Assembly (NCBI RefSeq): GCF_000821065.1
Contig: NZ_CDGG01000001.1
Span: 3,658,001-3,722,000 of the forward strand
Direction of reading: 5' to 3'
Source of the DNA: Oceanobacillus oncorhynchi
Lineage (GTDB): Bacteria > Bacillota > Bacilli > Bacillales > Amphibacillaceae
DNA length: 64,000 nucleotides
Shown: positions 5,821 through 29,182 of the stretch, one piece after another
Numbering within the stretch: the first letter of the stretch is position 1
Layout: each line of letters begins with the position of its first letter
Notes under the pieces: model-generated
Database searches by the model: none
Told to the model about the DNA's origin: nothing
Seen by the model: only the letters and a program-made list of their open reading frames with translations
Position numbers and translations under genes: made by a program

Positions 5821-5919
5821 AGATATTGGCTATAAACAAGCTGTAAATACTAGGAATTGCATACATAGGCACATCGTCAGCTTTACGGTTGAAACGTGAA
5901 CATAAGGAGGCATAATAAG

Positions 5920-6786
5920 TTGAAGGTTCGAGTAAAAAATATTGTATTTATTTTAATAGGAGCAGCCATCTTTTCCTTTGGACTTGTCCATTTTAATATG
6001 CAGCACAATCTAGGAGAAGGCGGTTTTACAGGTATCACCCTGCTGCTTTTCTTCTTATGGGATATCGACCCGGCAATCTCGAATATTGTCCTTAATATTC
6101 CGGTATTTTTTATTGGATGGAAAATACTAGGCAGGAATGCGTTTGTCTATACCATGGTTGGAACTTTATCCGTGTCTCTTTTTCTCTGGATTTTTCAAAT
6201 CTATCAGATTCAAATTGGATTAGAGGATGATATGACACTTGTCGCTTTATTTGCAGGTGTGTTTATCGGTATTGGATTAGGAATTATTTTCCGCTTTGGC
6301 GGGACAACCGGCGGAGTGGATATTATCGCTCGCATCATTAACAAATTCACTTCTTGGAGTATCGGAAAAGCGATGTTTGTCTTTGACTTTCTTGTGATTA
6401 TCACTTCTATTCTGACATTCCTTGAGCTGTCTGAAGGAATGTACACTCTGCTGGCTGTATTTGTTGGCGCGCGGGTGATTGATTTTATTCAGGAAGGCGC
6501 ATACGCTGCAAAAGGAGCATTTATCATCTCAAATCAAAGTGAAGAAATCGCAGAACAGATTATGGAAAAAATGGAACGGGGCGTGACAATTTTAAATGGT
6601 CAGGGGAGCTTTTCCAAAGAGAAAAGGAATGTGCTCTACTGTGTAGTCGCACGAAATGAAATTGTCCGGATGAAAAACATCATTAATCAGACAGACCCTT
6701 CTGCCTTTGTTTCGATGACAACCGTGCATGAGGTGATGGGAGAAGGTTTCACATTGGATGAGAATAAAAAGCCGTTAAATGATTAG
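5920..6786 (+). CDS. ypjC: YitT/YpjC-family membrane protein (DUF161 + DUF2179)
   Basis: About 288 residues. Five or so hydrophobic segments (residues 5-190) are followed by a soluble C-terminal domain of about 80 residues with the GVTILNGQGSFSKEKR pattern of DUF2179. The function of the family is unknown; membrane transport is often proposed. TTG at 5920 is preferred over the in-frame GTG at 5896, because AAGGAGG sits at 5904-5910, eight or nine bases before the TTG and inside the longer version. It is one of only three plus-strand genes here and ends at a strong hairpin. Confidence 0.85.
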   Translation: MKVRVKNIVFILIGAAIFSFGLVHFNMQHNLGEGGFTGITLLLFFLWDIDPAISNIVLNIPVFFIGWKILGRNAFVYTMVGTLSVSLFLWIFQIYQIQIGLEDDMTLVALFAGVFIGIGLGIIFRFGGTTGGVDIIARIINKFTSWSIGKAMFVFDFLVIITSILTFLELSEGMYTLLAVFVGARVIDFIQEGAYAAKGAFIISNQSEEIAEQIMEKMERGVTILNGQGSFSKEKRNVLYCVVARNEIVRMKNIINQTDPSAFVSMTTVHEVMGEGFTLDENKKPLND

Positions 6787-6795
6787 GCAAGATAA

Positions 6796-6828
6796 AAAGG
6801 AGCTTAGGAAATTATCCTTAGCTCCTTT
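6796..6828 (+). terminator. Intrinsic terminator after the YitT gene
   Basis: AAAGGAGCT (6796-6804) pairs with AGCTCCTTT (6820-6828). An inner AGGA/TCCT continues the stem after one T-T mismatch, with loop AATTA. Only a short T stretch follows on the plus strand. Confidence 0.7.
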
Positions 6829-25908: not shown

Positions 25909-27387
25909 TTATAAAATAATAGCGATTAAACCGCCTGACCCTTCGTTAATAATTCTCTCTAGGGTATCTTTTAATTTATATCTTGCATTCTCCGGCATTA
26001 ACGAGATTTTAGCTTGAATACCTTCTCTGACAATCGAACTGAGCGATCTGCCAAAAATATCTGATTCCCAGATAGACAGCGGATCTTCTTCAAAATCCTG
26101 CATCAGATAACGGACCAGCTCTTCACTTTGTTTTTCGGTTCCGATAATAGGAGAGAATTCAGATTCTACTTCGACCCGAATCATATGAATAGACGGGGCA
26201 ACAGCTTTCAGACGGACACCGAACCTGGAGCCCTGACGGATGATTTCCGGTTCATCCAGCTGCATATCCTCTAAACTGGGAGCAGCAATACCATAGCCGG
26301 TTTGTTTTACCATTTGCAGAGCACCTGAAACTTGATCATACTCTCTTTTCGCATAGGCAAAATCCTGCATTAGCTCTAATAAATGGTCTTTACCTCGAAT
26401 CTCCTCCCCGACAATCTCCTTCAGAACATGGTCATATAACTGATCAGGGGCATGCAAGTCGATTTCGGCAATACCCTCGCCCATCTCCATCCCTGCTAAA
26501 TTGGCACCTTCAATATGTTCATAATCTCTGAAATGGCCAACGATATGGTCGACATCACGCAAGCGTTTTATATCCTTTACGGTATCTTGAATGGCCTCCT
26601 GATAATTTTGACGAAGCCAGTGATCTTCTTTTAAAACCATTACCCAGCTAGGCAGGTTTACATTTACCTCAAGTACCGGAAATTCGAATAATGCTTCACG
26701 CAGTACACTATAGACATCATGTTCTGTCATTGTTTCTACGCTCATCGCTAATACCGGAATATCATGCTGCTCCGTCAGCTCTTCCCGAAGCAAAGTTGTT
26801 TTTTGACTGTGCGGTTCTGTAGAATTGATTACCATAATAAATGGCTTGCCAACCTCTTTTAACTCTTCAATCACTCTTGTCTCAGCTTCAATATAGTCTT
26901 CTCTATCTATTTCACCGATAGTACCGTCTGTTGTCACGACAACGCCAATGGTAGAATGCTCCTGAATTACTTTACGGGTTCCTATTTCTGCTGCATCATG
27001 AAACGGGATAGGGTCCTCGTACCACGGTGTATGAATCATACGCGGGCCATTTTCGTCCTCAAACCCTTTCGCCCCTTCTACAGCGTATCCAACACAATCA
27101 ACAAGACGGACATTTACATCTAATCCATCTTCCACATTTACTTGAACAGCCTGATTCGGAACAAACTTTGGTTCTGTTGTCATAATGGTTTTTCCTGCTG
27201 CGCTCTGCGGTAATTCATCATGTGCTCTTGCTCTTTCACTTTCACTTTCAATATTAGGAAGTACAACCAACTCCATGAATTTCTTAATAAAGGTGGACTT
27301 TCCCGTACGGACTGCTCCGACGATTCCAAGATATATGTCGCCATTTGTACGTTTCGATATATCCTTAAAAATATCTGTTTTTTCCAA
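25909..27387 (-). CDS. spoIVA: Stage IV sporulation protein A, spore coat ATPase
   Basis: 492 residues, the same as B. subtilis SpoIVA, when started at the TTG at 27387, which has GGGAGGGGATC just upstream. An upstream ATG frame adds 13 unsupported residues. Walker A GAVRTGKST is near residue 22, and the C-terminus ends in GGLIAIIL, the hydrophobic tail that SpoVM recruits. It polymerises with ATP on the forespore surface as the coat basement layer. Flanked upstream by a large repeat and a SigE-like promoter. Confidence 0.97.
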   Translation of the reverse strand: MEKTDIFKDISKRTNGDIYLGIVGAVRTGKSTFIKKFMELVVLPNIESESERARAHDELPQSAAGKTIMTTEPKFVPNQAVQVNVEDGLDVNVRLVDCVGYAVEGAKGFEDENGPRMIHTPWYEDPIPFHDAAEIGTRKVIQEHSTIGVVVTTDGTIGEIDREDYIEAETRVIEELKEVGKPFIMVINSTEPHSQKTTLLREELTEQHDIPVLAMSVETMTEHDVYSVLREALFEFPVLEVNVNLPSWVMVLKEDHWLRQNYQEAIQDTVKDIKRLRDVDHIVGHFRDYEHIEGANLAGMEMGEGIAEIDLHAPDQLYDHVLKEIVGEEIRGKDHLLELMQDFAYAKREYDQVSGALQMVKQTGYGIAAPSLEDMQLDEPEIIRQGSRFGVRLKAVAPSIHMIRVEVESEFSPIIGTEKQSEELVRYLMQDFEEDPLSIWESDIFGRSLSSIVREGIQAKISLMPENARYKLKDTLERIINEGSGGLIAIIL

Positions 27388-27447
27388 AAGATCCCCTCCC
27401 GATCTCCGTACTTTGATATACATCACCCGTAATAGTTGGACACTAAC

Positions 27448-27478: not shown

Positions 27479-27711
27479 TAAGTTTTACACATTTTTATCA
27501 CACGTCCATCAGACGTCATATTTGACTTTAAAAGGTCCTCTAAGCAAGCTACAAATAAAACACAGGTGTTTATAAACAAACTTTATATCTCATGTATATG
27601 CAGCATGAATCTATTTATTCTGTTTTGTTTGAAGACGACAAAGAAAACCAAGAATATTGGTTGGTCTTTAAATCACCGGTGTCCTCGCCGAAGCGATGTC
27701 CGCTGCGACGG

Positions 27712-27744
27712 TTTTCGATGGGGCGAGTAATCGCAGTCCCAGGA
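27712..27744 (+). repeat. Short GNRA-hairpin module (A1)
   Basis: GATGGGGCGAGTAATCGC plus AGTCCCAGG. It lies between GCGAC (27705-27709) and GTCGC (27746-27750), at a place where repeat copy B has no module. Confidence 0.8.
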
Positions 27745-27947
27745 AGTCGCTTTTCGCGGGCAACGTTCAGCCTCCTCGGAAGAAAACCGCTTCCTGCGGG
27801 GTCTTCACCTGTTGCTTTTCCCGCAGGAGTCGACTTCCCTCCGCTCCCATCTTTGAAGAAATATGTTTTATTTGCTTTCTTTCAAAGAAATGAAGCTGAT
27901 TCTAGCGGTGGAAAAACACGGAGACTCCTATGGGAAAGCGCAATGGT

Positions 27948-27970
27948 CTTCGGTGGGGCAAGTAATCGCA
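27948..27970 (+). repeat. Short GNRA-hairpin module, degenerate (A2)
   Basis: TTCGGTGGGGCAAGTAATCGCA without the closing CCCAG arm. Confidence 0.6.
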
Positions 27971-27976
27971 AAAGCT

Positions 27977-28006
27977 CTTCGATGGGACGAGTAATCGCAG
28001 TCCCAG
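27977..28006 (+). repeat. Short GNRA-hairpin module (A3)
   Basis: TTCGATGGGACGAGTAATCGC plus AGTCCCAG. TGGGAC and GTCCCA pair perfectly here. This copy aligns with the single module of repeat copy B. Confidence 0.8.
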
Positions 28007-28205
28007 TCCCAGTGTGAAGACCCCGCAGAAAAAAAGTGAACTTCTTTTTTTCTACCCGCGGGGCATAAGTGCGACTATGCTTCTGTCTGCGCCTGACGGC
28101 TTGCCAATCAGCAAGTTTTCTTTAAAGGAAGCTGAGCGCAAGCCCATGGAAAGCGTAGTGTTTTTCCGGAGCGGCTATTTTTATAAACATTCTTATTCTT
28201 CAAAA

Positions 28206-28245
28206 AAAGCCATACAGTTCAATTATTGAAACTGCATGGCTTTTC
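28206..28245 (-). terminator. Intrinsic terminator of yphF
   Basis: On the minus strand AAGCCATGCAGTTTC pairs with GAACTGTATGGCTT (one wobble), followed by a run of U. Confidence 0.85.
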
Positions 28246-28248
28246 TAT

Positions 28249-28968
28249 TTAGTCTTCTTCCATAAATACGGCTTGTCCATCTTCTACGGTATAAGGCAGG
28301 GAATATGCTGGAACAAACGGATAATTATCCACTAAAAGATAACGGATATCATCGCCCTCTTCATAGCCATGATTATCCTCTTCCAGCGCCTGATTCAAAT
28401 CATAAGAATAATCAATATATAATTTGCCGTCTAAATCCATCACAATCGGCAAATCAGCCTGCGAATAAGGACTTTTCGCAGTCGGCGGTTCACTTAATCC
28501 GAGCTTTTCATAATCCACCGTATATATTTGATCTGTGATCTGCTGTCCGTAAGCTGGATATGTGTGCTCTTGCCTGTAAACGTCTAATCGTACATTGACG
28601 CTTCGCAATTGCTCCGTGGTTTGTAAATCAATAAGGCGGACTTGCAAATCGTCTTCCGGGTCAATAATCGTATACTGATAGACGCCGCCCTCTTCAAAAG
28701 AGTTTCCAGGCAGTTCAGACAAATAACCTTTCTCCAGCATCTGCTTAAAATCAATCAAATACTTTTCAAAGATATGTGTGTCGCTGTCTTTCGTCTGAAT
28801 CGGCACTAAACCATCTTCCTCTTCTCTATAGGTTTCAACTGCCTGCTGGACAACAGCTAACTGTTCTTCATTCGGAATCTGATTTTCCGACCGCTCGCTT
28901 TGAGGATACATACAGCCGCTTAAAAGCAAGAACATAAAGGGTATCGTCAATAAATATGTATATTTCAT
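28249..28968 (-). CDS. yphF: YphF-like lipoprotein
   Basis: About 239 residues from the ATG at 28968. A lipoprotein signal (TYLLTIPFMFLLLSGC) puts the lipidated Cys near residue 18, so the protein sits on the outer face of the membrane. The mature part is acidic with no catalytic motif I recognise. Named by its place between spoIVA and yphE-gpsA. An ATG one codon upstream (28971) is equally in frame but too close to AAGGAG. Confidence 0.75.
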   Translation of the reverse strand: MKYTYLLTIPFMFLLLSGCMYPQSERSENQIPNEEQLAVVQQAVETYREEEDGLVPIQTKDSDTHIFEKYLIDFKQMLEKGYLSELPGNSFEEGGVYQYTIIDPEDDLQVRLIDLQTTEQLRSVNVRLDVYRQEHTYPAYGQQITDQIYTVDYEKLGLSEPPTAKSPYSQADLPIVMDLDGKLYIDYSYDLNQALEEDNHGYEEGDDIRYLLVDNYPFVPAYSLPYTVEDGQAVFMEED

Positions 28969-28984
28969 CATGAAACTCCTTTTC

Positions 28985-29182
28985 CTATCTTGTTGGTCCA
29001 CTAAATGTAACATATAAAATAATCAAAGCACCGCTGACGAGACTTATATAAGCTAAAAATGTAATAATACTGCCAAACCAGCCTCGCAGCTTTGTTCTGC
29101 TCCAGACGATCAAGCCTGTAGCTAAGATTAATAAAAACATCCCGACAAAGGATATATACATCATTAACATGGATACTGACAA
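28985..29182 (-). CDS. yphE: YphE-like small membrane protein
   Basis: About 65 residues with two transmembrane helices separated by WSRTKLRGW. TTG at 29182 is preferred because AGAGGTGA lies five bases before it; the upstream ATG at 29206 has no site. It precedes yphF by 16 bp and is probably co-transcribed. Function is unknown. Confidence 0.65.
   Translation of the reverse strand: MSVSMLMMYISFVGMFLLILATGLIVWSRTKLRGWFGSIITFLAYISLVSGALIILYVTFSGPTR

Follow-up and report, generated by a model that had tools for sequence, protein, structure and literature searches.

A palindromic, modular repeat family of Oceanobacillus oncorhynchi whose commonest end type often lies beside transcription terminators

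The window analysed here, 64,000 nucleotides of contig NZ_CDGG01000001.1 of Oceanobacillus oncorhynchi (positions 3,658,001 to 3,722,000), holds two copies of a large palindromic repeat in opposite orientations, named A and B below (Table 1). Copy A is a neighbour of spoIVA, and the terminator hairpin on its other side is the target of A and lies outside the element. The inverted repeat next to the right end of B is likely the terminator of a YitT-family gene (5896-6786, + strand). According to the original prediction A and B are collinear and differ in ways that preserve base pairing, and both statements are borne out. Indeed, A 27739-28166 (+) aligns with B 7213-6859 (-) at 87.2% identity over 352 gap-free columns (70% with gaps counted, in the genome search), and the local alignment score of 279 compares with a maximum of 32 among 200 shuffles of B. 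The stem read as GGAAG/CTTCC at 27778-27794 in A is GAAAG/CTTTC at 7176-7156 in B, the A7/T7 stem of A has its A6/T6 counterpart at 6996-6972 in B, and TGCGGG/CCCGCA is present in both alike. When folded with short flanks, A is far better than its shuffles on either strand (z of -5.2 and -5.9); the folding of B is weaker (z of -2.3, with 3 of 100 shuffles folding equally well). The homologous pair is thus real, but the element exceeds the span first given to it and the family extends far beyond two copies.

Table 1. Coordinates, in the window, of copies A and B, their parts and their neighbours
Feature	Position	Strand	Basis or remark
Copy A, whole type I element, about 560 bp	27641..28200	+	Left end at genome position 3685641 (window 27641); right-end motif CATTCTTATTCTT at 28188-28200
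Type I left end of A, imperfect subterminal inverted repeat (by eye)	27641..27705	+	Score 78 against the type I left-end consensus
Order-wide palindromic core in A, GGAAGTCGCTTTTCGCGGG...CCCGCAGGAGTCGACTTCCCTCCGCTCCCATC	27742..27851	+	Homologous to the cores of alignment A1; coordinates from sequence
A7/T7 hairpin module of A	28027..28053	+	A-versus-B alignment
Type I right end of A, towards the terminator	28168..28200	+	Right-end alignment
Intrinsic terminator hairpin of gene 28249-29013 (-)	28204..28245	-	dG -22.1; 3 nt from the right end of A
Copy B, type I element, right end decayed	~6832..~7279	-	Left end ~7279 by alignment; right boundary by eye, approximate
Inverted repeat beside the right end of B, weak T-tract	6798..6826	+	By eye
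spoIVA, neighbour of A	25909..27426	-	Pfam SpoIVA domains; upstream site served the empty-site comparison

About 60 loci of the family were found in the 4.6-Mb genome. With A as query, 94 matches were obtained, which we grouped into 40 loci (the first look at the genome with A had given 180 candidates, 40 of them scored), and the use of other copies and of end motifs as queries added 22 places. Altogether 62 places were fetched, a few of which carry just an end. The whole-genome search that the original prediction had called for therefore yielded many further copies, and its statement that such segments recur in Bacillaceae proved right, the core being present in many genera of that family. 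Matches were found in 51 of the 58 genomes searched and in 25 of 31 genera, and a strict two-motif pattern occurred in 43 of 398 genomes of the class (20 of 145 genera), with at most 70 occurrences per genome; both genome counts include our own. The reversed control pattern gave no match in any of the entries listed. Neobacillus, Rossellomorea, Alkalihalobacillus, Lentibacillus and Oceanobacillus are core carriers among the matches listed, and O. sojae has a type I left end (L138). Plasmids matched in three records with A as query and in ten with a Bacillus copy; phages gave no match to the family, and viral contigs none to the single core pattern tried. We found no description of this family in the open-licence papers searched: one of four exact core strings was without match and the others occurred only in papers with unrelated titles, and the available portions of PMC1590033 and PMC10969869 hold nothing on it.

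Placed side by side, the copies appear as a palindromic rod built of interchangeable modules, namely a core of about 125 bp found order-wide, an A/T hairpin, a hairpin module that some copies (L013, L016, L023 and L045) carry more than once, and small TGGGAC...GTCCCA repeats. The core is flanked by at least four kinds of ends, to which the inner modules are common. Type I, to which A, B and most copies belong, has a left end starting with TAAGAAAAACCAAGAATACC and a right end finishing with ACTTTCTTATTCTT; type II has CTATATAAATTGAA inverted repeats, type III has 22-bp ends containing CACCAAAATCTATGG, and type IV, a single copy (L022), has ACTCAACTTTCGCAC inverted repeats. The 12 measured copies span 337-639 bp. 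Since some type I copies are hardly more than their ends (about 85-170 bp, by eye), the core resembles a passenger carried by the ends. In Neobacillus massiliamazoniensis the core lies between other, TGTCCCA-like inverted repeats (L098, L099, L107 and L155), which suggests a further end type. Two composite arrangements were also seen: at L037:2893-3600 two type I left ends stand in tandem, the second starting right after the right end of the first element, and at L190:2940-3005 one end is chimeric, with a type II-like end sequence coming after a type III terminal repeat (by eye).

Type III bears signs of transposition. Its 22-bp inverted repeats are ISL3-like, and an 8-bp target duplication borders all five complete copies (four exact, one with one mismatch), among which both orientations are represented. 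The host has six ISL3 copies whose ends begin with GG(C/T)TCT; L175, the single copy tested, is bordered by an exact 8-bp duplication. Because ends and duplication resemble those of the host ISL3, an ISL3-like enzyme is the likely mover of type III, whose copies have the features of ISL3-derived MITEs, ISL3-like inverted repeats and an 8-bp duplication as in the host ISL3. The host ISL3 copies themselves were rejected as its parent, their ends being alike in kind but different in repeat sequence. For three plasmid ISL3 elements the end test used recovered no ends, so that they speak neither for nor against parentage. In other Bacillaceae, GGCT-starting inverted repeats with an 8-bp duplication enclose the core in 12 of the 107 loci that could be tested and in none of the 274 displaced controls, and the elements so delimited in other genera measure 183-272 bp; the remaining 95 loci may have decayed ends, ends of other types or ends beyond the windows used. 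Next to the ISL3 copy of L175 we also noticed imperfect internal repeats (L175:110-520) that apparently encode an Ala/Glu/Gln-rich stretch.

The right end of type I is often found at terminators. A hairpin with a dG of -10 kcal/mol or lower lies at most 12 nt from 21 of 32 type I right ends, and in these strong cases it is 0-9 nt away from the element; the same measure gave 0 of 46 type I left ends (p=2e-11) and 1 of 32 ends of types II and III, some of the type II ends being chance matches. The other 11 right ends have no strong hairpin. This cut-off was picked after the list had been seen, and the contrast is softer at -6 kcal/mol (27 of 32 right ends versus 10 of 46 left ends). Most of the tails that separate hairpin and element are rich in T. 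The hairpins belong to the target, since they vary by locus and occur at sites devoid of the element. It could be argued that repeats merely survive between genes, where terminators abound, and the longest ORF of the 1.5-kb right flank does read towards the element in 11 of the 12 loci examined; however, this explanation is very improbable in view of the counts for left ends and for type II and III ends, of the closeness of the hairpins in the 21 strong cases and of their presence at the empty sites inspected. At L014:3390-3674, a type I element stops right before a ribosome-binding site and start codon, where no strong terminator is found. The gene downstream presumably encodes a fabZ-like protein, and the element might influence its expression.

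The comparison of empty sites proposed in the original prediction brought out presence/absence differences between species. Empty sites were sought for 8 of the 12 measured loci in six relatives, and both flanks were recovered for five (L010, L021, L026, L033 and L228). Precise junctions could be read at L021 and, at the L228 locus, in an ends-only copy, the other loci being too diverged. The L021 site is empty in three relatives (two of them identical there), where the left flank joins the terminator tail and no bases are duplicated. At the L228 locus, genome G025 has the ends-only copy of about 110 bp and genome G019 has none; here TTCTTA terminates the target and the element alike. The target duplication expected of a classical MITE was thus absent at the two type I loci with precise empty sites. 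The spoIVA site was compared in 30 loci (our own and 29 relatives) out of 57 matching genomes, our own included: the full element is present in our own genome only, a decayed piece remains in one of the 29 relatives, the other 28 show no match to A at E 1e-3, and the terminator hairpin occupies the same place in the relatives inspected. The two ends of type I show only a weak TAAGAA-like similarity to each other (by eye). Like classical MITEs, A and B are short and without a transposase gene, the ORFs that overlap them (141 and 134 aa) matching no Pfam family; but since type I has neither the clear terminal inverted repeats that type III possesses nor a duplication at empty sites, A and B are not classical MITEs.

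How type I moves is a separate question. Movement as single-stranded DNA in the manner of IS200/IS605, with a Y1 HUH transposase acting in trans and insertion 3′ of a T-rich target in the terminator tail, would fit the missing duplication at the two precise loci, the subterminal hairpin of the left end (by eye), the shared TTCTTA and the orientation of the copies: 40 of 44 assignable type I left ends are oriented against the leading strand (42 of 46 if two left ends in the GC-skew gap are included). Strands were assigned by GC skew of the fetched stretches, which switches between 3.19 and 3.66 Mb; the switch was set at 3.40 Mb in one analysis and at 3.43 Mb in another. In L034 and (by eye) in B, however, where replication and terminator conflict, the element goes with the terminator, and the base preceding the insertion varies. 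Moreover, the Y1 transposase matches of the genome are few and damaged: there are three, two short and partial and one longer, with a stop in two of the three, and type I end matches around them are at chance level only, so that these genes are unsupported as the parent of type I. We regard an IS200/IS605-like movement as rather doubtful.

Group IIC introns, which home to terminator hairpins, offer another origin, type I being their relic or parasite. The target is identical, just after intrinsic terminators, as for B.h.I1 of B. halodurans in the portion of the report available (PMC3240598). On the other hand, Rfam gave no group II match at gathering score in the window, nor one among four weak hits over A, and the type I ends do not resemble group II intron ends. 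Such an origin is quite unlikely: the target is the same, but type I is no group IIC intron.

The covariation for which the family was first singled out was examined in an alignment (A1) of 56 of the 62 non-redundant cores filtered from 117, from which L015, L038, L049, L103, L148 and L151 were left out, their 5′ side being apparently truncated or foreign. As the retrieval pattern fixed CCGCAGGAGTC, CCGCTCC and ATC, the invariance of these columns proves nothing. Double changes were found in 10 of the 25 predicted pairs, and the outer helix has one pair that is GC in 27 cores and AU in 25 and another that is UA in 22 and CG in 21. The covariation is therefore strong, and the stems do not vary independently.

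Is this the mark of a structured RNA with a function, which transposons have scattered and selection for base pairing maintains? Besides the covariation itself, loop and helix sequences are conserved across genera. If an RNA of one strand were under selection, G-U should be tolerated more than A-C, and a crude count over the 56 cores does favour G-U (115 versus 81, p=0.018). But this count includes invariant mismatched columns; in the variable cells only, G-U stands at 11 versus 18 for A-C (p=0.26, small numbers, no positive control), and the copies of our own genome give 168 versus 135 (p=0.07). The stems thus covary without strand-specific G-U tolerance. Furthermore, both strands of A fold well, the minus strand of A1 folds at lower energy, the complete type III copies lie in both orientations, and Rfam returned nothing at gathering score in the window. 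Of the four weak Rfam hits at A, three overlap the neighbouring terminator and one, within the element, is to a human lncRNA model, and we took them as chance or terminator matches. We consider a selected RNA unlikely.

The copies themselves point to another source of complementarity. In 5 of the 54 copies scanned (L026, L033, L034, L223 and L226), a segment of one arm is the reverse complement of the other arm, the rewritten segment being an inverted form of the right-arm motif located in the other arm; perfect inverted-repeat arms reach 20 bp in L223 and 16 bp in L226. Over 29 pattern matches in the fetched loci, the lengths of the A-run and the T-run are correlated (r=0.53), and in 17 they are equal; at least one of the matches is perhaps outside an element. 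The available part of one study argues that template switching during replication can create compensatory changes in RNA stems (PMC8794818). Because G-U is not in excess, both strands fold and the arms are rewritten in some copies, the covariation is no strong argument for an RNA. Real as the paired changes are, they are probably better explained by arm copying, and selection on a DNA hairpin is possible as well. Arm copying does not account for the strong conservation of the unpaired motif TTCCGCTCC and of the helix CTTTCCGCGGG/CCCGCAGG, although the search pattern is itself responsible for part of it.

The original prediction, a mobile or selected structured RNA or DNA, possibly a miniature element, therefore holds in one part only. 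Mobility is upheld by the number of loci, by the type III repeats and duplications and by the type I empty sites; selection on an RNA is not, given the counts in the variable cells and the arm copying observed. In our opinion A and B are very probably two copies of a mobile DNA element that is palindromic, modular and non-autonomous, and whose arms are probably kept complementary largely by template switching. Enzymes encoded elsewhere would act in trans on the element ends: an ISL3-like transposase on type III and, on type I, some enzyme with a preference for DNA that is single-stranded or in hairpin form immediately 3′ of a terminator. Template switching in replication would copy one arm from the other and so keep the complementarity, and the DNA hairpin would perhaps aid mobility and thereby also preserve the arms. 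Insertion after terminators spares genes. Our searches found no autonomous type I element or matching transposase.

A bolder reading, which we put forward as speculative and doubtful, is that type I represents a novel sort of DNA element, which homes to terminators by recognising them as DNA hairpins and inserts without duplication, that the core is a portable module moving between unrelated transposon ends across Bacillales, and that its covariation was written by replication. The family provides a large natural data set of RNA-like covariation that was probably made by DNA template switching, and hence a caution for RNA discovery by covariation. It also offers a test case of how a short DNA element locates transcription terminators, and annotators could use it to clear spurious ORFs from Bacillaceae genomes.

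Among known systems, ISL3-type MITEs resemble type III only, in being short and non-coding, with mostly GG-starting inverted repeats and 8-bp A/T-rich duplications; A and B, as type I copies, differ by the lack of clear inverted repeats and of a duplication at the empty sites seen. REP and other IS200/IS605-derived elements are palindromic, cause no duplication and have no long inverted repeats, and type I shares all three traits, but no cognate Y1 transposase was found for it. Like group IIC introns such as B.h.I1, type I sits directly after intrinsic terminator hairpins (PMC3240598 and PMC7923331, in the portions available), and B.h.I1 is described there as recognising ssDNA structures that correspond to these hairpins (PMC3240598); type I differs as a palindromic non-coding rod in which no group II RNA domains were found. 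Bhal-1 of B. halodurans, 36 copies of a 74-bp stem-loop repeat, is likewise a stem-loop family of a Bacillaceae genome, compared here by its description in part of the source (PMC2267715), and is a published candidate for identity with the core.

The nearest architectural parallel is the BOX family of pneumococcus and Streptococcus suis. According to the part of the source available (PMC3049150), BOX elements consist of inner modules, variable in number, enclosed by end modules, form hairpins and open reading frames, and in S. suis place identical inner modules between two different end pairs. In our family, too, inner modules in variable number are common to different end modules (types I-IV). 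The likeness noted is one of architecture, and our family differs from BOX in that one end type lies at terminators, another has ISL3-like ends with 8-bp duplications, and the copies are spread over many genera.
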